Below, piece by piece: positions 16,906 through 29,501 of a stretch of 37,904 nucleotides of DNA. A model generated the notes under the pieces. The model was not told where the DNA came from and searched no databases. It saw only the letters and a program-made list of their open reading frames with translations. Source of the stretch: Clostridia bacterium (GTDB lineage Bacteria; Bacillota; Clostridia; Christensenellales; Aristaeellaceae); NCBI GenBank assembly GCA_017410455.1, contig JAFQQT010000012.1, positions 1-37,904 on the forward strand, in the 5' to 3' direction. The first letter of the stretch is position 1. Each line of letters begins with the position of its first letter. Made by a program: the position numbers and the translations under genes.

Positions 16906-17970
16906 TCAGCACGCCGCTGCGCACTCCTGCACGATGCGGCACAGCAGCGCCCACTGCCGCTCCATGTCGCGCACGAGGGCCAGCTGGGCGCGGCAGCGGT
17001 CGAGGTTGTGGCCCGGGCGGTGGATGCGGAAGTAGACGTCGCCGTTGAGGTGGTCGGTGAGGAAGCGGACGGCGTTTTCCAGCGTCATCAGCTTCGCGCC
17101 CCAGGGGAGGGTTTCGATCTCCGTGGGGGTCAGGCTGTCCCTGCAGGCGGCGAGGAAGCCGCTGGCGAAGGCGCGGTACATGGCCGGATCCACATGCACG
17201 AGGGTCAGGTCGGTCTCGTCCTCGGCGGCGGTGGAGGCGCCCGTGCGGATGGCATCGCCGAAGTCGTGAGCCACAAGGCCGGGCATCACCGTGTCGAGGT
17301 CCATCACGCACAGGGGGCGGCGGGTGACCGCATCCAGCATGACGTTGTTGAGCTTGGTATCGTTGTGGGTCACGCGCAGGGGCAGCTGCCCGGCGCGGTT
17401 CAGCCCGGTGAGGGTATCCGCCTCCGCCTCGTAATGCAGCAGGGCCTCCACCTCGGCCTGCACGGCGGACAGGCGGCCGGCGCGGTCCTCTGCGATGGCC
17501 TGGCGCAGCAGGCGGAAGCGGTCGGGGGTGTCATGGAAGCGGGGGATGGTCTCCGTGAGCGTTTCGGCGGGGAAGTCTGCCATCAGCCGCTGGAACTGCC
17601 CGAAGGCCAGGCCCGCCTGCCGCAGATCCTCCGGGGATTCGGGGGCGTCGGGGCACACGCCATCGATGTAGTCCAGCATGCGGAAGTGCCGTCCGTCGGG
17701 GGTGCGGTGGAAGGTTTCGCCTGCATGGGTGCGGATGAGGCGCAGCGCGTGGCGGGGGTCGGCGTCCTTCGTGTGCAGATGCGCGCACACGGCGGCGAAG
17801 TTGGCCATCAGCCCCGGCACGTCGCGGAAGACATGGTGATTGATCTCCTGCAGCACGAACCGGGTTCCGGCTTCGCTGATGACAAGGTGGGTGCGGTTGA
17901 TGTGGCCGTTGCCCAGGGGTTCGCAGCTGACGATGCTGCCGACGGGAAACTGACGCAGGATGCTTTGCAT
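16906..17970 (-). CDS. APH-family sugar kinase, N-acetylhexosamine 1-kinase (NahK)-like
   Basis: This 354-residue member of the aminoglycoside-phosphotransferase/choline-kinase fold has the catalytic loop His202-Asn-Asp204 followed by TKLNN, and the metal-binding Asp224-Leu-Asp226 (VMDLDTVMPG). The combination HNDTKLNNV plus DLDTVMPG and the length of about 355 residues are those of NahK, which phosphorylates GlcNAc or GalNAc at C1 in the bifidobacterial lacto-N-biose pathway. It probably salvages N-acetylhexosamines for sugar-nucleotide synthesis. CGGAGG precedes the ATG at 17970; the frame is open further upstream but only through promoter DNA. Related kinases act on other sugars, so the substrate is inferred. 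Confidence 0.85.
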   Translation of the reverse strand: MQSILRQFPVGSIVSCEPLGNGHINRTHLVISEAGTRFVLQEINHHVFRDVPGLMANFAAVCAHLHTKDADPRHALRLIRTHAGETFHRTPDGRHFRMLDYIDGVCPDAPESPEDLRQAGLAFGQFQRLMADFPAETLTETIPRFHDTPDRFRLLRQAIAEDRAGRLSAVQAEVEALLHYEAEADTLTGLNRAGQLPLRVTHNDTKLNNVMLDAVTRRPLCVMDLDTVMPGLVAHDFGDAIRTGASTAAEDETDLTLVHVDPAMYRAFASGFLAACRDSLTPTEIETLPWGAKLMTLENAVRFLTDHLNGDVYFRIHRPGHNLDRCRAQLALVRDMERQWALLCRIVQECAAAC

Positions 17971-18024
17971 GAGAGGCCTCCGTATGGCTTGATGAGGGCT
18001 GCTTGCGTGGGTCTGTGCCCTACC

Positions 18025-18053
18025 ATGATAGTGCAGCAAGGGGAGAAAGTCAA
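18025..18053 (-). promoter_or_regulatory. Promoter of the NahK-like gene
   Basis: Read leftward, TTGACT (18048-18053), a 17-base spacer and TATCAT (18025-18030). It is one of two divergent promoters in the 383-base gap 17971-18353. The stretch 18054-18200 between them holds no gene or repeat that I can identify. Confidence 0.75.
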
Positions 18054-18200
18054 GTGGGGGAGACGCTGTCGGCTGCTGGCGGAGCAGGGGAGAAGAGGGC
18101 GCAGGATGCAGCTCCCGGGCGGATGCTGATTTTTCGTGTACTATATGTAAGAAATCGGCAGAAGACACAAGAAATACAGGATTGAGTTGTGCATAATCGA

Positions 18201-18230
18201 TTGACAAAATGTGTATCTGGGATGTATAAT
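18201..18230 (+). promoter_or_regulatory. Strong promoter of the glycan assembly cluster
   Basis: Consensus TTGACA (18201-18206) and consensus TATAAT (18225-18230) are separated by 18 bases. It is the best promoter in the window and drives the eight-gene block that ends at 29408. The transcript should begin near 18237, giving a leader of about 117 bases that contains a small open frame and the inverted repeat CGGGAA-G-TTCCCG (18292-18304). Confidence 0.88.
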
Positions 18231-18244
18231 AATACTGGTTCATT

Positions 18245-18343: not shown

Positions 18344-18353
18344 GGTGTATGGA

Positions 18354-20339
18354 ATGCAGGAAAAACAAAAGAAGAAGAAGGGGCGCCGGCATTCGATCAT
18401 GCTGATGCTCTACGACCTGGTGTTGCTTCTGATCTTCGATCTGATGATGCTGATCATCTATCCCAGCAGCGTAACGAAACTCAGCGCTGCCGGCGTGGCC
18501 GCCAACTGTGTGATGAGCTGCGCCAGCGTGATGGGTTGCCGTACGCTGCTGAACATCTATAAGCAGATTTGGCGATATGGTGGTACGACGCAGTACATCC
18601 TCCTGATTATCGCGGATGCTGTGGCCGGGCTGGTGTATCTGGCGATGCTGTATCTGCTGCCCTTTGAAAGGATCACGGCCCTGCGCGCGCTTTCGCTGGT
18701 GGCCATCAACCTCCTGGCAGCCATCACCATCCGCCTGGCTTATCAGTACATGTACGAATACAGCAGCCTCAAGTCGCCGGTGGGCAAGTTCCTGCGCCGC
18801 CTGACCCGCGCCATCACCGGCGTGAAGATCGAGCCGGTGGCATCGGTCAATGGCAGGAAGGCGAACCACCGCATCAACATCGCCATCGTCGGCGCGGGCC
18901 GCGTGGGCGTGATGCTGGCCGATGAGCTGCTCCGGAACCCCTCTGCGGCCTATCAGCCCTGCTGCTTCATCGACATCGACAACGAGAAGATCGGCCGCTA
19001 CATCAGCGGCCTGCAGGTGTTCTCGGAGGCTGAAGTGACCCCGGAGCTGCTGGCGGCCTTCCCCATTCAGGAGATCGTCTTCGCCATGCCCGATGTGGAC
19101 ATGGAGCGCAAGCAGCAGCTCTACAGGCAATACAAGCAGACCGGCTGCAAGGTCAAGGTCTACGACTACCCCGATCCCCAGAAGATGGGCAGCAAGCGCA
19201 CGATGCGCGAGTTCGACGTGACGGAGCTCCTTTTCCGCCGGCAGGTTGAGTTTGTCGATGAGCAGACCGCCAGCTACTACCGCGGCAAGACCGTGCTCAT
19301 CTCCGGCGGCGGCGGCTCCATCGGCAGCGAGCTCTGCCGGCAGATCGCCAAAATGGGACCGAAGCGGCTGGTCATCCTGGACGTGTACGAGAACGGCGCG
19401 TATGACATCCAGCAGGAGCTGCGCATCCGCTACGGCGCGAAGCTGGACCTGGTGGTGGAGATCGCCACGGTCTGTGACCGGGAAGGGCTGGACCACATCT
19501 TCGCCGAGCACAGGCCGGATGTGGTGCTGCATGCGGCGGCCCACAAGCATGTGCCGCTGATGGAGCGCAACTGCGTGGAGGCGGTGAAGAACAACGTCTT
19601 CGGCACGCTGAACATCGTCGAGGCTTCCGAGCGCCACGGCGTGGGCAAGTTCACCATGATCTCCACCGACAAGGCGGTCAACCCCACCAACGTGATGGGC
19701 GCGACCAAGCGCATGTGCGAGATGATCGTGCAGAGCCGCACGGGCACGAAGACGAACTTCTCCGCCACCCGCTTCGGCAATGTCCTGGGCTCCAACGGCT
19801 CCGTCATCCCGCTGTTCAGGCGGCAGATCATGAACGGCGGCCCCGTGACGCTGACGGACAAGCGCATCATCCGCTACTTCATGACCATCCCCGAGGCCAG
19901 CCAGCTGGTGCTGCAGTCCGGCGCGATGGCGAAGAACGGCGAACTCTATGTGCTGGACATGGGCAAGCCCGTCAAGATCCTGGAGCTGGCGGAGAACATG
20001 ATCCGCCTGAGCGGCTTCGAACCCTACAAGGACATCGACATCATCGAAACCGGCCTGCGCCCCGGCGAGAAGCTCTACGAGGAGCTGCTCATCAAGACCG
20101 AGGAGCTGGACAGGACCGCCAGCAGCATGATCTTCGTCGAGCGGGATCAGCCGCTGACGATGGAGGCAATCGCCGGCAAGCTCCGCCGCCTGCAGCAGGC
20201 TGTGGATACCGGCGATGACGAGGCTGTCCGCGCGGCCCTGCATGAGGTGGTGCCCACCTTCAGGACGCCGGAGGAGATCAATGCTTCGGCGGCCGCTGCG
20301 CAGGAGATGCAGGATGTGAAGCAGGCGGCTGCGGGCTGA
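18354..20339 (+). CDS. Membrane-bound UDP-sugar 4,6-dehydratase (PglF/FlaA1/CapD family)
   Basis: This 661-residue protein has four membrane helices in the first 135 residues. A first Rossmann-type domain carries GAGRVG at 180-185, and a catalytic short-chain dehydrogenase-type domain carries GGGGSIG at 318-324. The active site reads STDKAVNPTN-VMGATK (about 437-452). Methionine (448) stands where tyrosine is usual, as is typical of this inverting/retaining UDP-GlcNAc dehydratase group. It would convert UDP-GlcNAc to the 4-keto-6-deoxy sugar, the first step to bacillosamine-type or QuiNAc4N sugars. The ATG at 18354 is spaced eight bases from GAGG; a GTG three codons earlier overlaps that site. 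It is the first gene of the glycan block. Confidence 0.95.
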   Translation: MQEKQKKKKGRRHSIMLMLYDLVLLLIFDLMMLIIYPSSVTKLSAAGVAANCVMSCASVMGCRTLLNIYKQIWRYGGTTQYILLIIADAVAGLVYLAMLYLLPFERITALRALSLVAINLLAAITIRLAYQYMYEYSSLKSPVGKFLRRLTRAITGVKIEPVASVNGRKANHRINIAIVGAGRVGVMLADELLRNPSAAYQPCCFIDIDNEKIGRYISGLQVFSEAEVTPELLAAFPIQEIVFAMPDVDMERKQQLYRQYKQTGCKVKVYDYPDPQKMGSKRTMREFDVTELLFRRQVEFVDEQTASYYRGKTVLISGGGGSIGSELCRQIAKMGPKRLVILDVYENGAYDIQQELRIRYGAKLDLVVEIATVCDREGLDHIFAEHRPDVVLHAAAHKHVPLMERNCVEAVKNNVFGTLNIVEASERHGVGKFTMISTDKAVNPTNVMGATKRMCEMIVQSRTGTKTNFSATRFGNVLGSNGSVIPLFRRQIMNGGPVTLTDKRIIRYFMTIPEASQLVLQSGAMAKNGELYVLDMGKPVKILELAENMIRLSGFEPYKDIDIIETGLRPGEKLYEELLIKTEELDRTASSMIFVERDQPLTMEAIAGKLRRLQQAVDTGDDEAVRAALHEVVPTFRTPEEINASAAAAQEMQDVKQAAAG

Positions 20340-20386
20340 GGTGCGGCCTGAGAATCGACCTTTCCAAAGATGGGAGAGACGGTACT

Positions 20387-22501
20387 GTGGATAAGATCAA
20401 ACAGGTGCTCAGAGGCGTGGCGCGGGACTGGTGGATCGCTGCGCTGGATATCATCGCGGTCAATGCGGCGTACTTCCTGGCGCTGCTGATCCGCTTCTAT
20501 GTGAACTTCGAGTTCCGCCCGACGGTCACCTTCTACCTGACCGACTTTGCGACCTTTGCGCCCTTCTATACGGTGCTGTGCCTGATTGTGTTTGCGGCCT
20601 TCCACCTCTACGGGGGCATGTGGAAGTACGCGGGCCTGAACGACCTGAACCGGATCATTGCCGCCTCCGTGGTGACGACGGCGATGCAGGTGCTGGGTAC
20701 GGTGCTCTTTGTGGGCCGCATGCCGGTGACGTACTACTTCATCGGCGCGCTGATCCAGTTCGTGCTCATTGCCTCCATCCGCTTCGGCTACCGCTTCCTC
20801 CTCATCGAGAAGAAGAAGCTGGAGAACCGCCGCAAAACCGGCGCGGCGACGATGGTCATCGGCGCGGGCGAGGCGGGCCGCTTCATGATCCGCAACCTGG
20901 AGGAGAGCACCTCCTACCGGCCCGTGTGCGTGGTGGACGTGAAGAAGGCCTCCTACGGCCGGATGATGAACGGCATCCCGGTGTGGGGCGGCACGGACGA
21001 TGTGGAGCGTGCGCTGGACGTGTACGGCGTGAAGTGCATCTTCCTGGCCGAACCTCTCATGCAGCCGGAGATCCGCGAGAAGATCGCCCGCCTGTGCCAG
21101 GAGCGCAGGATTGAGCTGCAGGATCTGGGCTACTCCTTCTACATGAACGCCGATGAGCAGCAGGCCCCCGAAGAGCCGCTGAAGCCTGCCGCCAAGGCCG
21201 ACGGCAAGCGCGCCATCCCCTTCAGCCCCCCGGATATCAGCGAGAGCGAGATCTCCGAGGTGGTGGAGGCACTGCGCTCCGGCTGGATCACCACCGGCCC
21301 GCGCACCAAGCTCCTGGAGCGCCGCCTGGCGGCCTTTATCGAGACCGGCCGCGTGGATATCGAGGCCGGCGACGAGTACAGCAACCGCGTGGTGTGCCTC
21401 AACTCCGCCACCGCAGCGGAGGAGCTGAACCTGCGCGTGCTGGGCGTCGGCCCCGGCGACGAGGTGATCGTCCCCGCGCTGACCTACTCCGCCTCCGCTT
21501 CCGCTGCCATCCACTGCGGCGCGACGGTGATCTTCGTTGACGTTCAGAAGGACGGCGACCCGCTCACCCGCGTGCCCGAGATGGACTACGATGCGCTGGA
21601 AGCGGCCATCACCCCCCGCACCAAGGCGGTCGTGGCGGTGGATTACGGCGGCATCGTCTGTGATTATGAGCGGATCTTCGACATTGTGGAGCGCAGGAAG
21701 GCGCTGTTCACGCCCGTGGAATCCGACGGCAGCCCGCTGAAGGATCTGGGCTCCCGCATCCAGAAGGCGCTGGGCCGCGTGGCGGTCATCTCCGACTGCG
21801 CGCATGGCCTGGGCGCTTCCCGCGTGTTCCGGGGCGAGAAGAAGTACACCGGCGCCATTGCCGACATGACCAGCTTCAGCTTCCATGCGGTGAAGAACTT
21901 CACCACCGCCGAGGGCGGCGCCAGCACCTGGCTGCCCATTCCCGGGGTGGACAACGCGGAGATCTACAAGATGTTCCAGCTCCTGTCCCTGCACGGCCAG
22001 AACAAGGACGCCCTGGCCAAGACGAAGCTGGGCGCCTGGGAGTACGACATCATCGGCCCGTGGTACAAGTGCAACATGACAGACATCATGGCCGCCATCG
22101 GCCTGCGCCAGCTGGACCGTTACCCGGGCCTGCTGGAGCGCCGCGTGGAGATGATGAAGAAGTACGACGCGGTCTGCGCCGAGCTGGGCGTGAGCCACCT
22201 GGTGCACCACGTTGCGGGCATGGACAGCTCCAACCACCTCTACATCACCCGCGTGCCGGGCATCACTGCCGGGCAGCGGAACGAGATCATCGAGAAGATG
22301 GCGCAGCGCGGCGTGGCCACCAACGTCCATTACAAGCCCCTGCCCATGATGACCGCCTATGGCCGGGACTGCTCCGCCTATCCCAATGCCAGCGATTACT
22401 ACCACAACCTGATCACCCTGCCGCTGCACACGCTCCTCTCCGATGAGGATGTGGACTATGTGTGCCAGGCCTTCCGCGAGGTCGTGAAGGAATACATCTG
22501 A
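20387..22501 (+). CDS. Fusion of a membrane/Rossmann module with a DegT-type sugar aminotransferase
   Basis: This 704-residue two-part protein has about four membrane helices in residues 15-140 and a nucleotide-binding domain with GAGEAG at 159-164. Together they look like the N-terminal half of CapD-type dehydratases or WbaP-type transferases (CoA_binding_3). A linker rich in Gln, Pro, Glu and Lys (about 255-275) leads to a complete DegT/DnrJ/EryC1/StrS aminotransferase (about 276-704) with D470, H473 and the PLP lysine K503 in SFHAVKNFTTAEGG. It should transfer an amino group to the C4 ketone made by the preceding dehydratase, as PglE does, but held at the membrane. Translation starts at a GTG behind GGGAGAG. 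Stand-alone homologues of about 380 residues are usual; the fusion is not. Confidence 0.9.
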   Translation: MDKIKQVLRGVARDWWIAALDIIAVNAAYFLALLIRFYVNFEFRPTVTFYLTDFATFAPFYTVLCLIVFAAFHLYGGMWKYAGLNDLNRIIAASVVTTAMQVLGTVLFVGRMPVTYYFIGALIQFVLIASIRFGYRFLLIEKKKLENRRKTGAATMVIGAGEAGRFMIRNLEESTSYRPVCVVDVKKASYGRMMNGIPVWGGTDDVERALDVYGVKCIFLAEPLMQPEIREKIARLCQERRIELQDLGYSFYMNADEQQAPEEPLKPAAKADGKRAIPFSPPDISESEISEVVEALRSGWITTGPRTKLLERRLAAFIETGRVDIEAGDEYSNRVVCLNSATAAEELNLRVLGVGPGDEVIVPALTYSASASAAIHCGATVIFVDVQKDGDPLTRVPEMDYDALEAAITPRTKAVVAVDYGGIVCDYERIFDIVERRKALFTPVESDGSPLKDLGSRIQKALGRVAVISDCAHGLGASRVFRGEKKYTGAIADMTSFSFHAVKNFTTAEGGASTWLPIPGVDNAEIYKMFQLLSLHGQNKDALAKTKLGAWEYDIIGPWYKCNMTDIMAAIGLRQLDRYPGLLERRVEMMKKYDAVCAELGVSHLVHHVAGMDSSNHLYITRVPGITAGQRNEIIEKMAQRGVATNVHYKPLPMMTAYGRDCSAYPNASDYYHNLITLPLHTLLSDEDVDYVCQAFREVVKEYI

Positions 22502-22511
22502 GGTGCATGAC

Positions 22512-23132
22512 ATGTACAGGAAGTTTGTGAAGCGTTTTCTGGATATCGTGATCTCGCTGATCGCCCTGCCCTTTGTGGGCCTGGTGATCCTCGTGTTCGC
22601 GCCCATCATCTGGCTGACGGACAAGGGCCCGGTGTTCTACAATGCCACCCGCCGCGGCATGAACGGCAAGACCTTCAAGATGTTCAAGCTCCGTTCGATG
22701 AAGGTGAATTCCCCCGTCCTCAGGAATGCGGATGGCTCCACCTACTCCGGCGACGACGATCCCCGCGTGACGAAGATCGGCCGCATCATGCGCAAGCTGT
22801 CCATCGACGAGCTGCCGCAGATCCTCAACGTCCTCATCGGCGACATGAGCTTCGTCGGCCCCCGTCCCACGCTGGCGACGACCCCCTACGAGCAGCTGGA
22901 CGAGAACCGCAGGAAGCGCCTGACCGTGCGTCCCGGCATCACCGGCTACAGCCAGGCCTACTTCCGCAACTCCATCACCCAGGATCAGAAGGTCATCAAC
23001 GACTGCCACTATGTGGATCATCTGTCCTTCAGCTTTGACGTGAAGATCCTGATCCAGACGGTGCTGAGCGTGGTGCGATCCAGGAACATCAACTATCAGG
23101 AAAGCACCCAGAAGAAGGATGTGGCACAGTAA
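22512..23132 (+). CDS. PglC-like phosphoglycosyl transferase (initiating sugar transferase)
   Basis: This 206-residue monotopic phosphoglycosyl transferase moves a sugar 1-phosphate from a UDP-sugar to undecaprenyl phosphate at the inner membrane face. It has the single re-entrant hydrophobic helix (about residues 10-35), the KTFKMFKLRSMK segment, the catalytic Asp99-Glu100 pair in LSIDELPQ, the MSFVGPRP motif and VRPGITG. The short form lacks the N-terminal membrane/Rossmann module of WbaP-type enzymes, a module that instead sits on the aminotransferase just upstream. The ATG at 22512 is seven bases behind TGAGGTG; a GTG three codons earlier is less likely. Ten bases separate it from the preceding gene. 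Confidence 0.95.
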   Translation: MYRKFVKRFLDIVISLIALPFVGLVILVFAPIIWLTDKGPVFYNATRRGMNGKTFKMFKLRSMKVNSPVLRNADGSTYSGDDDPRVTKIGRIMRKLSIDELPQILNVLIGDMSFVGPRPTLATTPYEQLDENRRKRLTVRPGITGYSQAYFRNSITQDQKVINDCHYVDHLSFSFDVKILIQTVLSVVRSRNINYQESTQKKDVAQ

Positions 23133-23133
23133 T

Positions 23134-24306
23134 ATGAAGCGTCTGCTCATTATCGGCGCCTCTGTCCTGCAGGTGCCCGCCATCCGCAAGGCAAAGGAAA
23201 TGGGCCTGTACGTGGCGGTGGCGGATTTCAATCCCAACGCCATCGGCATCCCGCTGGCGGACGAGTACTACAACGTCTCCACCATCGACGAGGAGGGCGT
23301 GTACGAGGCCGCCAGAGCCTTCCGGGCCGACGGCATCATGACCCTGGCCACCGACATGCCCATGCGCGCCCTAGCCTACGCCTGCGGCAAGCTCGGCCTG
23401 GTGGGCCTGGCCTACGACGCCTCCGTCAAGGCCACGGACAAGGGCGAGATGATCAGGACCTTCGAGGCAGCGGGCGTTCAGCACCCGTGGTACCAGATCG
23501 TCCCTGCGGGTGAAAAGCCTGCAGCGGGCTACACCTTCCCGCTGATCACCAAGCCCACGGACAACTCCGGCAGCCGTGGCGTGATGCTCGTCCACAATGA
23601 GGAGGAGCTGGCGGCTGCGCTGAGCTACTCGTCGGAAAACGGCCGCCGGGGCGACGTGATCATGGAGGAATACATGCAGGGCCCCGAGGTCAGCGTGGAG
23701 GTCATGGTGTCCCACGGCGTCCCCCATGTCCTGCAGATCACCGATAAGCTGACCACCGGCGCGCCCCACTTTGTGGAGATGGGCCATTCCCAGCCCTCCC
23801 GGCTGCCCTCCGCTGCCCAGGACGCCATCCGCGATCTGGCCAGCCGCGCGGCGCTGTCCGTGGGCATCCAGGACGGCCCGGCGCACGTGGAGATCATCCT
23901 GACGGCAAACGGCCCCAAGATGGTCGAGCTGGGCGCGCGCATGGGCGGCGACTGCATCACCACCCATCTGGTGCCCCTGTCCACGGGCATCGACATGGTG
24001 GGCAACACCATCCGTATCGCCCTGGGCGAGGAGCCCGACCTGACGCAGATGCTGCACAAGGGCTCCGCCATCCGCTACTTCAGCGTCCCCTGCGGCGTGA
24101 TCCGCGAGATCACGGGCGTGGAGGAGGCCCGGGCGATTCCGGGCGTCAGGGAAATCACCTTTGTCAAGCACGTGGGCGACACTGCCGGCGACATCGGCAG
24201 CAGCACCGACCGCGTGGGTTTCGTCATCGCCCAGGCCGACACGGCGCAGGAGGCTGTGGAGGTTTGTGAGAGGGCGATGGGCGTGGTGAAGATTGTTGTA
24301 GAGTGA
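23134..24306 (+). CDS. ATP-grasp ligase 1
   Basis: This 390-residue ATP-grasp protein resembles carbamoyl-phosphate-synthase/PurK-type ligases. A Rossmann-like pre-ATP-grasp domain (1-100) precedes the ATP-binding domain, with Lys140 in FPLITKPTDNSG, the hinge MEEY at 177-180 and the VELGARMGGD metal/substrate segment. Such enzymes activate a carboxylate as acyl-phosphate and join it to an amine. It begins one base after the stop of the phosphoglycosyl transferase and is followed by a second, divergent ATP-grasp gene, so it belongs to the same operon. The likely acceptor is the 4-amino sugar made by the upstream enzymes and the donor an amino acid or other acid; this is inferred from context. 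Confidence 0.85.
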   Translation: MKRLLIIGASVLQVPAIRKAKEMGLYVAVADFNPNAIGIPLADEYYNVSTIDEEGVYEAARAFRADGIMTLATDMPMRALAYACGKLGLVGLAYDASVKATDKGEMIRTFEAAGVQHPWYQIVPAGEKPAAGYTFPLITKPTDNSGSRGVMLVHNEEELAAALSYSSENGRRGDVIMEEYMQGPEVSVEVMVSHGVPHVLQITDKLTTGAPHFVEMGHSQPSRLPSAAQDAIRDLASRAALSVGIQDGPAHVEIILTANGPKMVELGARMGGDCITTHLVPLSTGIDMVGNTIRIALGEEPDLTQMLHKGSAIRYFSVPCGVIREITGVEEARAIPGVREITFVKHVGDTAGDIGSSTDRVGFVIAQADTAQEAVEVCERAMGVVKIVVE

Positions 24307-24319
24307 AGGAGATAATCAG

Positions 24320-25591
24320 ATGAAGAAGCTTCTGATTCTGGGCGGCACGTCCGCGTCCCTTGACCTTGTCAGGAACGCGAAGGAAATGGGCGTGTACACC
24401 ATCGTGACGGATGACCAGCCCACAGGTGTGGCCAAGCAGATTGCCGACGAGACCGCCATGGTCAGCACGACCGATATGGAGGGCCTGCTGCAGCTGATCC
24501 GCGACCGTCAGGTGGACGGCGTATTCTGCGGACCGAGCGAGTTCAATATCCGCAACCTGCTGCGCGTGTGCGAGCTGGCGGGCCTGCCCTGCTACACCAC
24601 GACGGAAATCTGGGATCTGTGCGCCAACAAGGACGTGTTCAAGCAGTACTGCCGTCAGTATGACGTGGACTGCACGCCTGAATATGAGCTGACCGCTGAC
24701 ATGACGGATGAAGAGCTTGACCAGATCGACTATCCGATCATCATCAAGCCTGTTGACGGCTGCAGCTCCAAGGGCATCACGGTCTGCATGGACAAGTCGA
24801 ATGTTCGTGAGGCATATGAGAGCGCGATGGCCTTCTCCACCTGCAAGCGCATCATCGCGGAGAAATACATCCAGAACGACGGTGAGCTGTTCTCCGTGCG
24901 CTATCTGCTGCGGGACGGCGAGGCGTATCCCTACTTTGTGATGGATACTTATGTGGCCGATCCCGTACACCGCACCAGTCTGATCAGTGCTCTGACCTAT
25001 GCTCCTTCCAAGTATATGGACTACTACATGAAACACATGGACGCTAATGTCCGCAGGATGCTTAAGGGCATGGGTCTGCGCAATGGTACGGCGTTCATCC
25101 AATCCTTGCCTTGTGATGGGAAAATCTACTTCCATGAGATGGGCTACCGTCTCAGCGGCGGTATGATCTTCAAGCTGACTGAGCCGCTGGTGGGCGTGAA
25201 CGACATGAAGATGATGATTCGTTACGCACTGGGTGGCCAGATGGTAACGGATGAGGAAATCGCGGCGCTGGATGTGACGAAGATGCATCATCTGGCTGCG
25301 CAGCTGATGGTGCCGCTGAGCGCGGGTACGCTGGGTAGAATCGAGGGCCTGGAGCAGGCCATGAGCCACCCGGCGGTGAAGGATTTTATTCAGTACTATC
25401 AGGTGGGCCAGTGCGTTCAGAAGAGCTATATCGGCACGCTGTCCCAGCATTTCGGCCGCTTCTCCATCATCGCGGACACTCGCGAGGAGATCATCGCGAC
25501 CGTCGATGCGATCCAGAAGGAGCTGCGGATCTACGATACGGACGGCAATCGCATGAATGTGATGCAGTTCGATCTGACAAGGATGGGCTGA
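24320..25591 (+). CDS. ATP-grasp ligase 2
   Basis: This 423-residue protein has the same architecture as its upstream neighbour: an N-terminal LILGGTSASLDL pre-ATP-grasp domain, Lys143 in YPIIIKPVDGCSSKG, and an HEMGYRLSGGM segment with the expected metal-binding acidic residue. It is clearly a different subfamily: the C-terminal 120 residues are not alike, so it is not a simple recent duplicate. GAAGGAGAT precedes the start, 13 bases after the first ligase. Two ligases could add two building blocks in series or act on two sugars. Carboxylate-amine ligase chemistry is family knowledge; the substrate is unknown. Confidence 0.85.
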   Translation: MKKLLILGGTSASLDLVRNAKEMGVYTIVTDDQPTGVAKQIADETAMVSTTDMEGLLQLIRDRQVDGVFCGPSEFNIRNLLRVCELAGLPCYTTTEIWDLCANKDVFKQYCRQYDVDCTPEYELTADMTDEELDQIDYPIIIKPVDGCSSKGITVCMDKSNVREAYESAMAFSTCKRIIAEKYIQNDGELFSVRYLLRDGEAYPYFVMDTYVADPVHRTSLISALTYAPSKYMDYYMKHMDANVRRMLKGMGLRNGTAFIQSLPCDGKIYFHEMGYRLSGGMIFKLTEPLVGVNDMKMMIRYALGGQMVTDEEIAALDVTKMHHLAAQLMVPLSAGTLGRIEGLEQAMSHPAVKDFIQYYQVGQCVQKSYIGTLSQHFGRFSIIADTREEIIATVDAIQKELRIYDTDGNRMNVMQFDLTRMG

Positions 25592-25629
25592 ATCCCCGTA
25601 AAGGAAGCCCTGTTTGATGGAGGTTGTCT

Positions 25630-26877
25630 ATGCGGATTCTCAAGCTGTCATCCTACTGTACACCGGAGCAGGTTTCCAGCTCGCATTTGTCCAAGGACCT
25701 GACGGCGGCATATATCAATGCTGGTTTCACCATCGTCAACTATGTTCCTACGCCGACCCGCGGTATTTCGGACGAGGTGCGCCAGAAGTATAAGAAGATC
25801 AAATATGAGGAGCTGGAGGACGGCAAGTTCGTCATTCACCGCTTCCCCATGTTCCGCGAGGGCAGGAACCCCATCCAGCGCGCCATCCGTTATGTGCTGG
25901 TCAACATCATTCAGTACTTCAAGGGCAGCAGGGCGAAGGATGTCGACGTGATCTATGCCGGCAGCACCCCCCCCACCCAGGGCCTGCTGTGCGGTATGGT
26001 CAAGAAGCGCCTGAAGGTGCCCTTCGTGTACAACCTGCAGGATATCTTCCCCGATTCCCTTGTCAATGCGAAGATGACCAAGAAGGGGAGCCTCATCTGG
26101 AAGATTGGCCGGAAGATCGAGGACTTCACCTACCGCAGCGCGGACAGGATCATCGTCATCAGCGAGGGATTCAAGCAGAATATCATGGAAAAGGGCGTCC
26201 CCGAGGAGAAGATCGTCGTTATCCCCAACTGGGTGGACACCGATCAGGTGTACCCCATCGCCCGGGAGGATAACGTGCTCTTCGCGCGCTATGGCCTTGA
26301 TCCCAGCAAGTTCTATGTCTGCTACAGCGGCAACATCGGCCACTCCCAGAACCTGGAGCTCCTGCTGGAGGCGGCGAAGGTGCTGAAGACGGATCTGCCC
26401 GATGTGCACTTTGTCCTGATCGGCGAGGGCGCCGCGAAGGAGGACCTGGAGAAGACGGTGGCTGAGGAGAAGCTCGGCAACGTGACCATCCTGCCCTTCC
26501 AGCCCTACGAGGAGATTGCCCATGTGTTCAGCCTGGGCGACGCGGGCCTGATCATGTCCAAGCCCGGCATCGGCGGCAGTTCCGTGCCCAGCAAGACCTG
26601 GAGCATCATGGCGGCAGAGCGTCCCGTGCTGACCTCCTTCGACACGGACAGCGAGCTGTTCCGCATGGTGGACAGCGTCGGCTGCGGCGTGTGCGCGGAT
26701 CCCAGCAGCGCGGAGGCGCTGGTGGAAGGCGTGAAGAAGCTCCATGCAGACCGCGCGGCGGCGCAGGAGATGGGCAGGAAGGGCCGCGCGTATGTGAAGA
26801 CGTATCTGGACAAGGACGTCTGCACGGGGATGTATGTGGGGACGGTACGGGACGTGTGCGCTCGTGCGAAGAAGTAA
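25630..26877 (+). CDS. GT4 glycosyltransferase (WbuB-like)
   Basis: This 415-residue GT-B fold enzyme has two Rossmann domains. The N-terminal acceptor domain runs to about residue 190 (YAGSTPPTQGLL, YNLQDIFPDS). The donor domain contains the SGNIGHSQNLELLLEA, PFQPYEE and SKPGIGGSSVPSKTW motifs and the final EMGRKGRAYV helix. This pattern is that of WbuB-type transferases, which add N-acetyl-L-fucosamine or related amino sugars to lipid-linked intermediates. It is the only non-initiating glycosyltransferase in the block. GGAGG lies six bases before the ATG; a TTG two codons earlier is less likely. Donor and linkage cannot be read from the sequence. Confidence 0.92.
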   Translation: MRILKLSSYCTPEQVSSSHLSKDLTAAYINAGFTIVNYVPTPTRGISDEVRQKYKKIKYEELEDGKFVIHRFPMFREGRNPIQRAIRYVLVNIIQYFKGSRAKDVDVIYAGSTPPTQGLLCGMVKKRLKVPFVYNLQDIFPDSLVNAKMTKKGSLIWKIGRKIEDFTYRSADRIIVISEGFKQNIMEKGVPEEKIVVIPNWVDTDQVYPIAREDNVLFARYGLDPSKFYVCYSGNIGHSQNLELLLEAAKVLKTDLPDVHFVLIGEGAAKEDLEKTVAEEKLGNVTILPFQPYEEIAHVFSLGDAGLIMSKPGIGGSSVPSKTWSIMAAERPVLTSFDTDSELFRMVDSVGCGVCADPSSAEALVEGVKKLHADRAAAQEMGRKGRAYVKTYLDKDVCTGMYVGTVRDVCARAKK

Positions 26878-27009
26878 ACACCTGCTGGCAAGGTTGCGAA
26901 CCTCCTGTAAGAAGCAGTGCGCATCGGGAACTCGTTTGATGGATGGAACGAGGGAACTGCATGGAGCTGCAGAGGGTTTGCGTGCCGATGAAAGTCAAGG
27001 AGGAAACGA

Positions 27010-28182
27010 ATGGTTTCATCTCGTGGAAGACTGAGTATCCGGCTGAAGATTCCATCTGTTAGCCGCATTATGGATGCGATGTTCATATTCTTCTGCATGT
27101 TTCCCTTTCTGCTGCCCAATCCCATTATCAGCTCGGATCTTCAGCCCTATGCGGCGGTGATGGGAACGCTGATCTGTCTGCGCGATCTGCCACGCGCAGG
27201 CTTTTCGCTGATGCGTAAGAATCACCTGATCATTCTGGGGGTCACGGGTATCGTTGCGCTGATTGTGTTCGTCTTCAGCGGCATGACAATGAATGCGATT
27301 CGCGCGCTGTTCAACTATTATTCGGTGGTCGTGATTCCGGTGGCGATGTGTTTTGTGCTGCGTAGCTACCGTGGCTTTCCTGAAACGATGGTAAAAGCCT
27401 GTATTATGTTGTGGTTTGGCGTATGCACGATTCAGTTTTTTGTGTCGCGCACCTTTGCGCTGGCGTTTGTCAGTGGTGCGCGACATGGTATTTCTTACCG
27501 CGGAATCTGTGGCCTGGCTTCGGAGCCGTCTTTCCTGGGTATCGCATGTTTTTACATGCTGCATCTGATCCGGAAGTTCCGGAAGGGGCAGGTCTTGTAC
27601 ACCATCATAGTGGTTGTCATGGGCTGTCTGTATGCCCAGAGTGCCATGGGTATCATTTTTATCGCTGCATACTGGGTCGTTTTCCTGCTGGACATGACGA
27701 CGACCCGGAAGGGCATCTGGATCTGGTGCGGTACCATTTTGGCGGTCATCGTGGGTGGCTATGTGCTGCTGAATGTGCTGCAAGGTACACGCATCCATCA
27801 GCTTGTTATCGGGTTTCTCAGCAGCGACAGTTCCAGCGTTCTGTCGGACTCCAGCGTCAGCATCCGCCTGAGAGCCATTGTCAACGCACTGCAGGACGCC
27901 TGGGATGCATTGCTGATGCCGCAGGGTTTCGGTCCGCGAATCGGCAGCGGTTATGGCGGCTTCCTGTGCGAGCTGGGTTTCCTGGCGATTCCTGCACTAT
28001 GGCTGATATCCAACATGATGTCCAAGTGCTTCCGGCAGATGAAAAGCCAGGTGCTGTACTTTGTGGTTGTGACATTCCTGCTGTGCAATAACACACAGAT
28101 CGGCAATCCGTTGCTGCTGATGATTGTGGGCATGAACATGTACAGCGCGAATCGTGCCCAACGGCGCGTTGTGAGGAGATGA
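27010..28182 (+). CDS. Wzy-like polysaccharide polymerase
   Basis: This 390-residue integral membrane protein has about ten hydrophobic segments. A larger extracytoplasmic loop between the later helices contains SDSSSVLSDSSVSIRLRA, an arginine-containing loop of the kind found in the O-antigen polymerase/ligase superfamily. The GLASEPSFLGI segment is also typical of Wzy proteins. It would join lipid-linked repeat units outside the membrane. AAGGAGG lies just before the ATG. The 132 bases before it contain no gene or terminator that I can see. The sequence is lower in GC than the enzymes upstream. Wzy proteins are poorly conserved, so the call rests on topology and context as well as motifs. 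Confidence 0.8.
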   Translation: MVSSRGRLSIRLKIPSVSRIMDAMFIFFCMFPFLLPNPIISSDLQPYAAVMGTLICLRDLPRAGFSLMRKNHLIILGVTGIVALIVFVFSGMTMNAIRALFNYYSVVVIPVAMCFVLRSYRGFPETMVKACIMLWFGVCTIQFFVSRTFALAFVSGARHGISYRGICGLASEPSFLGIACFYMLHLIRKFRKGQVLYTIIVVVMGCLYAQSAMGIIFIAAYWVVFLLDMTTTRKGIWIWCGTILAVIVGGYVLLNVLQGTRIHQLVIGFLSSDSSSVLSDSSVSIRLRAIVNALQDAWDALLMPQGFGPRIGSGYGGFLCELGFLAIPALWLISNMMSKCFRQMKSQVLYFVVVTFLLCNNTQIGNPLLLMIVGMNMYSANRAQRRVVRR

Positions 28183-28187
28183 TCATC

Positions 28188-29408
28188 ATGTTCGGAAGGT
28201 ATAAGAAGGTGCTGATGGACATCATGTACAGCATCATCTCCTATGCGCTGCCGACGGTCATGCTGCAGATGGTTGCACAGCCGTTTATTGCCGCGAGGCT
28301 TACCGGCGCGCAGAATGATCTGTTCCTGACGCTGCTCAGCGCAGTTCGTCTGGGTGTTAATGTTTTCATCAGCGTCCTTGCCAACCTCCGGCTGCTGGAA
28401 AAGAAAAACTGCCAGGAAGAGCCCCGACAGGAAAAGAACATCAACTTCATGTTCTGTATCGCATGTACGCTCTGTCTTCTGCTCGCTGGAACATTGACGG
28501 TTGTGTATTGTGACGAACTGAGCTGGTCCGGACTTGCGCTGGTCCTCCTCGTGGCTGCGCTGATCTCTTTTCATGATTATTATGCCATCTGCTTCCGTGT
28601 CAGCATCAATTATCGGAAAGTAATGATCGATAATGCGCTGATCGTTGTGGGTTATGGCGTGGGCCTGCTGTGGTTCCTGGCCATTCCGCGGTGGGAGGTC
28701 GTATTCATCAGCGGTTACCTTTTTGGTTCCGTCTATGTTCTGATATCCAGTGACATGTGGAAAAAGGGGCTGGATTCGAAGGTTCCCGGCAGGCTCTATG
28801 GATCGTATGCGGCGCTCAGCGCATCGTCTGCGTTGACGAACTCGATCACCTATTGTGATAAGCTGCTCATGTATCCGATGCTGGAGAGTGGATCGGTTTC
28901 GTCCTACAATGCAGCGGCGGTGGTCAGCAAGATCATCTCCATCGTAACAGTACCGCTTCGCAATGTGCTCCTCAGCTATGTGGTAAACAGAAAAAAGCTG
29001 GTGCTTCCGCGAAAGCAATTGATGATGCTCCTTGCGCTCGTGCTTGGCGGCAGCCTGATCGTGTATGGCGGTGGTTATGGTGTGAGCCATCTGCTTTGCA
29101 GCCTGCTTTACCCGATGTACTACGGCGTGGCGAAACTGTACATTCCGATCATCATGCTATCCATCGTTTTCGAATCCCTGGCGTCATTGGGCAAGGTGTT
29201 GCTGATGCCTTTTGCAAAAGCCAGTCTGCAGACCATCATTTCGGCTGTTAAGCTGGGCACTTACGTGCTGATGATCATTCTGCTTGAGCTTGTTTTCCCG
29301 CTCGATCTGCTTGGTTTCTGCCTGGCGAGCCTGCTGGCTAACACTGCGATGATGCTGTGTGTGTTCGGGAATTTGCTGAAGCATATCGAACTTACAAACC
29401 ACCGCTGA
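28188..29408 (+). CDS. Wzx-like flippase (MATE/MurJ-type fold)
   Basis: This 406-residue membrane protein has about 11-12 helices and the pattern of polysaccharide flippases. An ISYALPTVMLQMVAQPFIAARL opening is followed by paired helices and polar residues in the early helices. It would move the undecaprenyl-linked repeat unit to the outer face for the polymerase encoded just upstream. The ATG at 28188 is nine bases behind GAGGAG; the ATG at 28179 is in frame but abuts that site. The stop of the polymerase gene lies between the two. A strong terminator follows, so this is the last gene of the block. Base composition is moderate, like the polymerase gene. Confidence 0.85.
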   Translation: MFGRYKKVLMDIMYSIISYALPTVMLQMVAQPFIAARLTGAQNDLFLTLLSAVRLGVNVFISVLANLRLLEKKNCQEEPRQEKNINFMFCIACTLCLLLAGTLTVVYCDELSWSGLALVLLVAALISFHDYYAICFRVSINYRKVMIDNALIVVGYGVGLLWFLAIPRWEVVFISGYLFGSVYVLISSDMWKKGLDSKVPGRLYGSYAALSASSALTNSITYCDKLLMYPMLESGSVSSYNAAAVVSKIISIVTVPLRNVLLSYVVNRKKLVLPRKQLMMLLALVLGGSLIVYGGGYGVSHLLCSLLYPMYYGVAKLYIPIIMLSIVFESLASLGKVLLMPFAKASLQTIISAVKLGTYVLMIILLELVFPLDLLGFCLASLLANTAMMLCVFGNLLKHIELTNHR

Positions 29409-29449: not shown

Positions 29450-29501
29450 AAGCGGCTTGCTCACCCTGAACGATTCATTCGGGTGGGTAAGCCGCTTTTT
29501 T
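29450..29501 (+). terminator. Terminator of the glycan assembly cluster
   Basis: AAGCGGCTTGCTCACCC pairs with GGGTGGGTAAGCCGCTT (two non-pairing or wobble positions) around a 14-base loop, followed by a T-run. It lies about 40 bases behind the flippase stop codon. Confidence 0.92.

Follow-up and report, generated by a model that had tools for sequence, protein, structure and literature searches.

An eight-gene Wzx/Wzy block with two ATP-grasp ligases predicted to acylate the amino sugar AATGal

Results

Organization of the block

What do two ATP-grasp ligases contribute to a surface-polymer block that encodes 4-amino sugar enzymes and no PglD-like acetyltransferase? This question was raised by the window, i.e., the whole stretch of 37,904 nucleotides analyzed here (Clostridia bacterium, GCA_017410455.1, contig JAFQQT010000012.1). 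Eight collinear genes, here named A to H, occupy positions 18345-29408 of the forward strand, which carries all the features described below. They are flanked by a sigma-70-like promoter (TTGACA-18-TATAAT, 18201-18230, 12/12 consensus matches) and a strong intrinsic terminator (29450-29497, -32.6 kcal/mol, z -7.3, with a T run downstream). These signals confirmed the promoter, the terminator, and the collinear genes described in the earlier note on this DNA, and it is highly probable that the block is an operon.

The enzyme families were evident from the sequence. A (18345-20339, starting at either GTG 18345 or ATG 18354) is a PglF-type membrane UDP-GlcNAc 4,6-dehydratase, with a Polysacc_synt_2 score of 386.6 bits. 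B is composed of an N-terminal part (20387-21181) with four hydrophobic segments in the hydropathy profile and a PglF-like CoA_binding_3 domain, which scored 22.3 bits in the whole protein and 25.0 bits in the N-terminal part alone (cut-off 25), and a C-terminal PLP aminotransferase (21182-22501). C (22503-23132; Bac_transf, 195.4 bits) is a monotopic phosphoglycosyl transferase (PGT) similar to PglC and WcfS, and the only other glycosyltransferase in the block is F, of the GT4 family (25624-26877; Glycos_transf_1, 63.7 bits). D and E are the ATP-grasp ligases, and H (28179-29408) is a flippase of the Wzx fold. G (27010-28182) gave no family match itself and was read as a Wzy-type polymerase from weak Wzy_C matches in three of five aligned members; its five relatives in the loci examined were each accompanied by a relative of H. 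No uronic-acid or other acid-group gene was found among the eight genes, and no third attaching enzyme was seen in the block. The earlier description, a 4-amino-sugar Wzx/Wzy block that has two ligases but lacks a PglD-like gene, was thus supported. Across the whole genome, which is 92% complete, a search with the NeuD/PglD model gave only two partial matches, at 28.3 and 20.6 bits (cut-off 160.8), and the better one was the N-terminal part of B itself.

Identity of the amino sugar

The aminotransferase of B matched Spr1654 (6ewj) with an E value of 1.1e-142 and 479.1 bits in the PDB search, while the next best enzyme gave 1e-49 and 172.8 bits. Moreover, both Spr1654 insertions, 150-164 and 212-217, were present in B when the alignment was read by eye, and the accessible text of PMC5936713 reports them from Spr1654 only. 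This aminotransferase is therefore of the Spr1654 type and not of the PglE type assumed earlier, and by homology the sugar is most likely UDP-AATGal, which is known with a free amine and does not require PglD. A bacillosamine-type sugar was set aside in favor of AATGal, as the match to Spr1654 was far ahead of those to other PDB aminotransferases. According to the available part of PMC13063421, PglF, WcfR, and WcfS together generate undecaprenyl-PP-AATGal in E. coli, and that of PMC10167101 gives AATGal as the source of positive charge in known zwitterionic polymers. Since the amine can stay free in such polymers, the missing PglD proves nothing.

Ligase D is linked to the aminotransferase and the phosphoglycosyl transferase

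D (23119-24306) is an L-amino-acid-ligase-like protein, scoring above the gathering score for both ATP-grasp_4 (80.1 bits, cut-off 27) and LAL_C2 (76.4 bits, cut-off 29.4), and its catalytic-type residues did not vary across 24 aligned sequences. One scan gave 415 relatives, and the linkage and slot counts refer to the best 80 of these 415 loci, which were selected by D. An AATGal-type aminotransferase was found in 68 of the 80, on the same strand and within 1.5 kb in 49, and a PGT in 73, within 300 bp of D in 61; the aminotransferase was not found in 12 loci within the available locus DNA, nor the PGT in seven at the limits used. A PGT-D fusion was seen once (L186, same contig as L057), with the domain order of PglB2, and a GNAT domain was fused to D in L059 and to the aminotransferase in L128. 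The linkage of D with both partners spans Bacillota, Bacteroidota, and Planctomycetota. Carriers of D assigned to named species include [Clostridium] citroniae (L137) and Odoribacter laneus (L173).

The search for the same gene order across genomes that the earlier note had called for found aminotransferase-PGT-D-E-GT4-Wzy-Wzx in two other loci. L130 and L146 have a dehydratase-like gene after Wzx, with 36-39% identity to A over about 280 residues. The L146 gene contains Polysacc_synt_2 and Polysacc_syn_2C (Pfam), which we take to be the CapE/FnlA architecture; these two, therefore, reproduce the window block only in part. Nevertheless, the composition is not unique, as first thought: the 415 relatives of D and the recurring gene order exclude this, similar gene sets in many bacteria indicate that the system is no one-off, and an ATP-grasp domain replacing the acetyltransferase of PglD is known from published descriptions of PglB2. 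A description of D in AATGal clusters was not found among the open-licence papers listed by the searches.

D is optional for AATGal. The 13 aminotransferase loci sampled (our own plus 12 matches of at least 53% from a family sample of 150 genomes, with weaker ones excluded) contained D in only three cases; any ATP-grasp gene within 8 kb was present in five and absent from eight, four of which have a contig end within 2 kb. The PGT sequence did not cleanly separate loci with and without D (five label changes, ten rows without D).

Ligase E and the slot after D

E (24320-25591) scored 24.8 bits for LAL_C2, below the gathering score of 29.4, and its catalytic-type residues were invariant in a 22-row clade, except for E273, which was aspartate in three rows. 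No relatives were matched in phages, and those in plasmids reached at most 28% among the 12 listed of 114. In some relatives of the block, a NeuD/PglD-like acetyltransferase sits in the position that E occupies here. In the 3 kb following D, 39 of the 80 loci had a second ATP-grasp gene, 11 a NeuD/PglD-like gene, none both, and 30 neither (Fisher 4.6e-4); in whole loci, the counts were 46, 11, 0, and 23 (Fisher 2.7e-5), both tests ignoring the relatedness of the loci. Thus, the second ATP-grasp and the full NeuD/PglD-like enzyme exclude each other at the limits used, and this is new; the NeuD profile was seeded from six of the 80 loci, and its 180-bit limit was chosen after the scores were seen. 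Under looser limits, three of the 80 loci (L129, L131, and L162) have a hexapeptide acyltransferase as well as a second ATP-grasp in these 3 kb. The NeuD-like proteins of the slot scored 113.6-154.2 bits, below the curated cut-off of 160.8 (n=6).

On the best D tree (85 rows), whose bootstrap is not yet settled, the slot label changed 24 times, against 35.4 in shuffles, so the labels are clustered. Well-supported branches alone force at least ten changes for the ATP-grasp label and at least five for NeuD, and L170 (NeuD) pairs with L180 (ATP-grasp) as its sister at 100/99. The exclusion together with this repeated switching indicates that, by position, it is E and not D that trades places with the PglD-like enzyme. 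D is no simple PglD replacement, because the acetyltransferase lies within 3 kb downstream of it in 11/80 loci. Of the earlier proposal that the ATP-grasp pair may take the place of PglD, the part concerning E thus agrees with its position, and that concerning D does not.

The E clade included 13 of the 14 loci with two or more organic-acid cassette genes, and the acyl group used by E may be an organic acid rather than an amino acid. In our own genome, the U298 and MmgE/PrpD queries for this cassette gave no match, in searches with no positive control in that genome, and the D-2-hydroxyacid dehydrogenase query gave three relatives at 33-37%. U298 itself gave no match by sequence.

Discussion

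Taken together, these data are best read as a surface polymer made by a Wzx/Wzy-dependent route, which would begin with an acylated AATGal on which D and then E act; from the sequences, we give the whole two-step chain a probability of about 0.4, and D by itself probably acts on AATGal. In this pathway, A would dehydrate UDP-GlcNAc to a 4-keto-6-deoxy sugar, the aminotransferase of B would convert it to UDP-AATGal with a free 4-amine, and D would couple an amino acid to that amine through an amide bond. E would then cap the new amine with a carboxylic acid, be it another amino acid or an organic acid, a step that a NeuD/PglD-like acetyltransferase would perform in sister loci. Next, C would transfer the sugar phosphate to undecaprenyl phosphate, F would add one further sugar, H would flip the unit, and G would polymerize it, with a repeat of about two sugars. 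Groups of this kind are on record: the accessible text of PMC3210612 lists 4-(N-acetyl-D-alanyl)amino, N-acetylglycyl, and N-[(R)-3-hydroxybutyryl]-L-alanyl substituents on 4-amino-4,6-dideoxyglucose in known polymers. The amino-acid or peptide decoration originally suggested survives in part, as an amide-decorated sugar is still the best reading while an organic acid may serve as the cap. The NeuD-like enzyme could also target a sugar of the repeat unit other than the one used by D, which would count against the D-then-E chain.

The slot exclusion would also be expected if E and the NeuD/PglD-like enzyme used the same amine. E would then acylate the 4-amine of UDP-AATGal directly, as a PglD stand-in, and D would act elsewhere, e.g., at another position or on a lipid-linked unit. 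The absence of a second ATP-grasp from all 11 NeuD loci agrees with this, and the cassette shared with the E clade would supply a direct acyl donor; however, it is D that goes with the aminotransferase and the PGT (within 300 bp in 61/80, fused once), and in the loci with neither slot enzyme (30/80 within 3 kb, 23/80 overall) it seems to work alone, and we regard the direct role of E as rather unlikely. Another reading, in our view unlikely, leaves the AATGal amine free in a zwitterionic polymer while the ligases amidate a carboxyl on a different sugar or have a role outside the polymer. It agrees with the positive charge that AATGal gives to known polymers and with relatives such as G083 (L114), which have the aminotransferase and the PGT without an ATP-grasp within 8 kb, but the block offers a single further glycosyltransferase and no uronic-acid gene, and the linkage of D to both partners extends over three phyla.

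That D and E first build an unattached dipeptide or acyl-amino acid, which is joined to the sugar afterwards, is suggested by the grouping of D with L-amino-acid ligases (LAL_C2, 3vot), yet it is quite improbable with no third attaching enzyme in the block and D lacking a second ATP-grasp in 34/80 loci. A bacillosamine-type sugar like that of Campylobacter, on which the ligases would stand in for PglD, has the PglF-like A and the precedent of PglB2 in its favor; it is very improbable given that the aminotransferase resembles Spr1654 far more than other solved PDB aminotransferases and shares its unusual insertions.

Under the two-step reading, AATGal amidation might be widespread: a constant D would add the amino acid, the cap would be interchangeable (E, NeuD-like, or GNAT), E would in some loci come with its own organic-acid cassette, and many predicted zwitterionic polymers of Bacillota and Bacteroidota would have masked or re-dressed amines. 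We put this forward tentatively. Genome screens, as given in the available part of PMC10167101, have used wcfR orthologues and neighboring conserved genes to predict AATGal zwitterionic, hence immune-modulating, polysaccharides. The module is also a candidate route for amino acids onto deoxy sugars; for one such sugar, the N-alanyl deoxyhexose of Prevotella intermedia, which may or may not involve D, the pathway is called unknown by the authors in the accessible text (PMC11969387). If D acylates the AATGal amine, wcfR and its neighbors would cease to predict charge, and D plus the slot enzyme would become a simple marker of which polymers keep it and which do not.

The Campylobacter Pgl pathway (PglF/PglE/PglD/PglC) and the window have the logic of dehydratase, aminotransferase, and PGT in common, but by homology the stereochemistry of the amino sugar differs, and the block lacks PglD. 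In the neisserial PglB2, which makes a glyceramido-acetamido trideoxyhexose, an ATP-grasp domain replaces the acetyltransferase domain and a UDP-4-amino sugar is involved, according to the accessible text of PMC11130364 and PMC6959607 ("proposed" in one). An ATP-grasp in place of PglD's acetyltransferase has thus already been described, and the new part is the exchange between second ligase and NeuD after D. Compared by description rather than sequence, PglB2 and the window both have a PGT working with an ATP-grasp, in the domain order found in the L057/L186 relative; in the window, however, C and D are encoded separately, a second ligase is present, the aminotransferase belongs to the AATGal type, and the product would be a polymer. 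The pneumococcal teichoic acid pathway shares the aminotransferase type with both specific insertions, whereas the available part of PMC5936713 describes no ligase step, and the Spr1654 chain, at 427 residues, is too short to include a membrane part like the one fused in B. Bacteroides fragilis PSA (WcfR/WcfS) is alike by description in its first sugar, AATGal, and its Wzx/Wzy assembly (PMC13063421), but it is a zwitterion in which AATGal provides the positive charge (PMC10167101), contains pyruvylated galactose, and has no ATP-grasp ligase named in the accessible text (PMC13063421). The Enterococcus hirae plasmid capsule cluster NZ_CP068121 carries a dehydratase, a DegT aminotransferase, a sugar transferase, a D-type ATP-grasp (49.5%), a GT4, a polymerase, and a flippase in the window order with other genes interspersed; unlike the window, it has one ATP-grasp, plus an oxidoreductase, an extra glycosyltransferase, an acyltransferase, and capsule regulatory genes. 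Finally, the L-amino-acid ligases (BL00235, PDB 3vot, as well as BacD) resemble D in the ATP-grasp fold, with LAL_C2 present in D, and they join two free amino acids, whereas the context of D points to a sugar amine.

Probable sugar identity and the search for PglD

When the aminotransferase domain of B, the protein in which it follows a membrane part, was compared with PDB entries, the pneumococcal enzyme Spr1654 was the best match (E = 1.1e-142; next-best enzyme, 1e-49). Both Spr1654 insertions were present in the alignment read by eye, and these are described as unique to that enzyme in the portions consulted of its structure paper, where AATGal synthesis is the proposed activity and substrate turnover is left to be established (PMC5936713). 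By its likeness to Spr1654, the product of B is most likely AATGal, a 4-amino sugar with a free amine. Besides the own genome, the 150-genome family sample has full-length fused B in three others (G185, G173, and G156) and a partial copy in G192; G009, which is of the same genus, also carries fused B. According to excerpts of a further report, undecaprenyl-PP-AATGal was obtained in E. coli from PglF, WcfS, and the Bacteroides enzyme WcfR (PMC13063421).

A full NeuD/PglD acetyltransferase was not found in the own genome (92% complete), where two partial matches were detected, one of 28.3 bits to B itself and one of 20.6 bits elsewhere. The earlier note's reading that the block lacks a PglD-like gene is supported, and this absence is no anomaly, because AATGal is the sugar whose amine provides the positive charge of known zwitterionic polymers (PMC10167101, excerpts). 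A divergent APH-family kinase (window 16909-18243, minus strand; Pfam, 78.3 bits) lies immediately upstream of the promoter, and is perhaps an N-acetylhexosamine kinase.

Distribution of the first ligase

Among the 150 genomes (own and relatives), homologues of D, the first ATP-grasp ligase (23119..24306), were detected at 90% identity in G009, 64% in G146 and G054, 54-56% in G123 and G145, and 53% in G099. When genome contigs were scanned once with eight aligned D proteins, 415 relatives were detected, of which the best 80 were retained (loci carry L numbers); these came from Bacillota, Bacteroidota, Planctomycetota, and one deltaproteobacterial bin. An AATGal-type aminotransferase was present in 68 of the 80 (in 49 of them on D's strand and no more than 1.5 kb away), a phosphoglycosyl transferase in 73 (61 within 300 bp), and an additional ATP-grasp in 46 (32 within 400 bp). 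The order aminotransferase, phosphoglycosyl transferase, D, E (second ligase, 24320..25591), F (GT4), G (Wzy-type), and H (Wzx-type) recurred in L130 (30-65% identity) and L146 (33-71%), with G relatives in five loci and H relatives in the same five and L123. This gene order is therefore found in other genomes as well. An annotated capsule cluster on an Enterococcus hirae plasmid resembles the block, and a Parabacteroides distasonis plasmid carries ATP-grasp, sugar transferase, ATP-grasp, and DegT aminotransferase genes consecutively. Of 13 loci in the window's family with an AATGal-type aminotransferase (the own locus and 12 retrieved ones), only 3 contained D, and an ATP-grasp of any kind lay within 8 kb in 5, so D is an optional add-on to the AATGal pathway.

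An 862-aa protein with tandem E-type ATP-grasp units follows two genes of PF14397 ("sugar-transfer associated ATP-grasp") at L181:8565-13064, and at L058:7932-9662, a phosphoglycosyl transferase bears a C-terminal part of about 375 residues, aminotransferase-like by eye.

The slot downstream of D

In the 3 kb that follow D, a second ATP-grasp was present in 39 of the 80 loci and a full NeuD/PglD-like acetyltransferase in 11; no locus had both, and 30 had neither (Fisher, 4.6e-4). The whole-locus counts were 46, 11, 0, and 23 (2.7e-5). These tests ignore kinship, the NeuD profile was seeded from six of the same 80 loci, its 180-bit limit was chosen after the scores were known, and relaxed limits gave three loci in which a second ATP-grasp coexists with a hexapeptide acyltransferase. 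Six NeuD/PglD-like slot proteins tested scored 113.6-154.2 bits with TIGR03570, below its cut-off of 160.8. The slot label needed 24 changes on the best D tree (85 rows; bootstrap still unsettled), against 35.4 when shuffled, indicating that labels are clustered. Well-supported branches alone required at least 10 changes for the ATP-grasp label and at least 5 for NeuD, and the sister rows L170 and L180 carried NeuD and ATP-grasp, respectively, so the difference is not one ancient split. In L054, the G009 locus, both parts of B, C (the phosphoglycosyl transferase), and D were 82-90% identical to the window, whereas the second ATP-grasps showed just 33% and 30% identity, which looks like a recent exchange of the second ligase.

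The second ligase and an organic-acid cassette

At least five of seven cassette genes, encoding a 298-residue protein, a PF15617 C-C lyase, an aldo-keto reductase, MmgE/PrpD, a phosphonopyruvate-decarboxylase-like protein (above cut-off in L137, the sole one tested), and two fumarase-like subunits, were found in 10 of the 80 D loci (L137:5824-12829; L159:9919-16708; L136, L154, L155, L172, L177, L191, L194, and L200). All ten had an E-type ATP-grasp, compared with 21 of the remaining 70 (Fisher, 2.7e-5, kinship ignored). In the E-type tree (45 rows), 13 of 14 loci with at least two cassette genes, all except L136, grouped together with the window's E in a single clade of 22 rows (support 100/99). 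As the cassette is tied to E-type ligases and to this clade, E may join an organic acid instead of an amino acid. Neither the window nor the loci of the four E rows closest to it (L125, L132, L135, and L143) showed the cassette in the locus DNA examined, and searches of the own genome for the 298-aa protein and MmgE/PrpD gave no match. E-type proteins of the clade retain the lysine, glutamate, and Gln/Glu residues of the ATP-grasp site, except that Glu273 is aspartate in three rows. The 298-aa protein (L137:9386-10282) had no match in Pfam, NCBIfam, or PDB; copies in seven other Bacillota/Bacteroidota loci were 72-84% identical to it.

Proposed chemistry and known systems

We propose that D would acylate UDP-AATGal at its 4-amine with an amino acid, and that a second enzyme, E or, in other loci, an acetyltransferase, would cap the amine introduced by D. 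This model would account for the constancy of D and its linkage to the aminotransferase and phosphoglycosyl transferase, for the acetyltransferase substituting the second ligase, and for GNAT domains fused to D (L059:1247-2965, minus strand) and to the AATGal aminotransferase (L128:5797-7500). Such capped aminoacyl amino sugars occur in nature: excerpts of PMC3210612 describe polymers in which 4-amino-4,6-dideoxyglucose bears N-acetylglycyl, N-acetyl-alanyl, or N-(3-hydroxybutyryl)-L-alanyl groups. As F is the only glycosyltransferase of the block besides C, two sugars probably make up the repeat unit; three LCP-family genes lie elsewhere in the own genome, and their products could attach the polymer to the wall.

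The earlier note knew of no such system, which is too strong: replacement of the acetyltransferase by an ATP-grasp domain on a UDP-4-amino sugar is published for PglB2 (PMC11130364 and PMC6959607, in the portions consulted; one says "proposed"). PglB2 joins phosphoglycosyl transferase and ATP-grasp domains in one protein, and the same domain order, with D, was observed at L057:9101-10909 (minus strand; L186 is the same contig). The open-licence papers searched gave no account of D within AATGal clusters, nor of the two-slot pattern.
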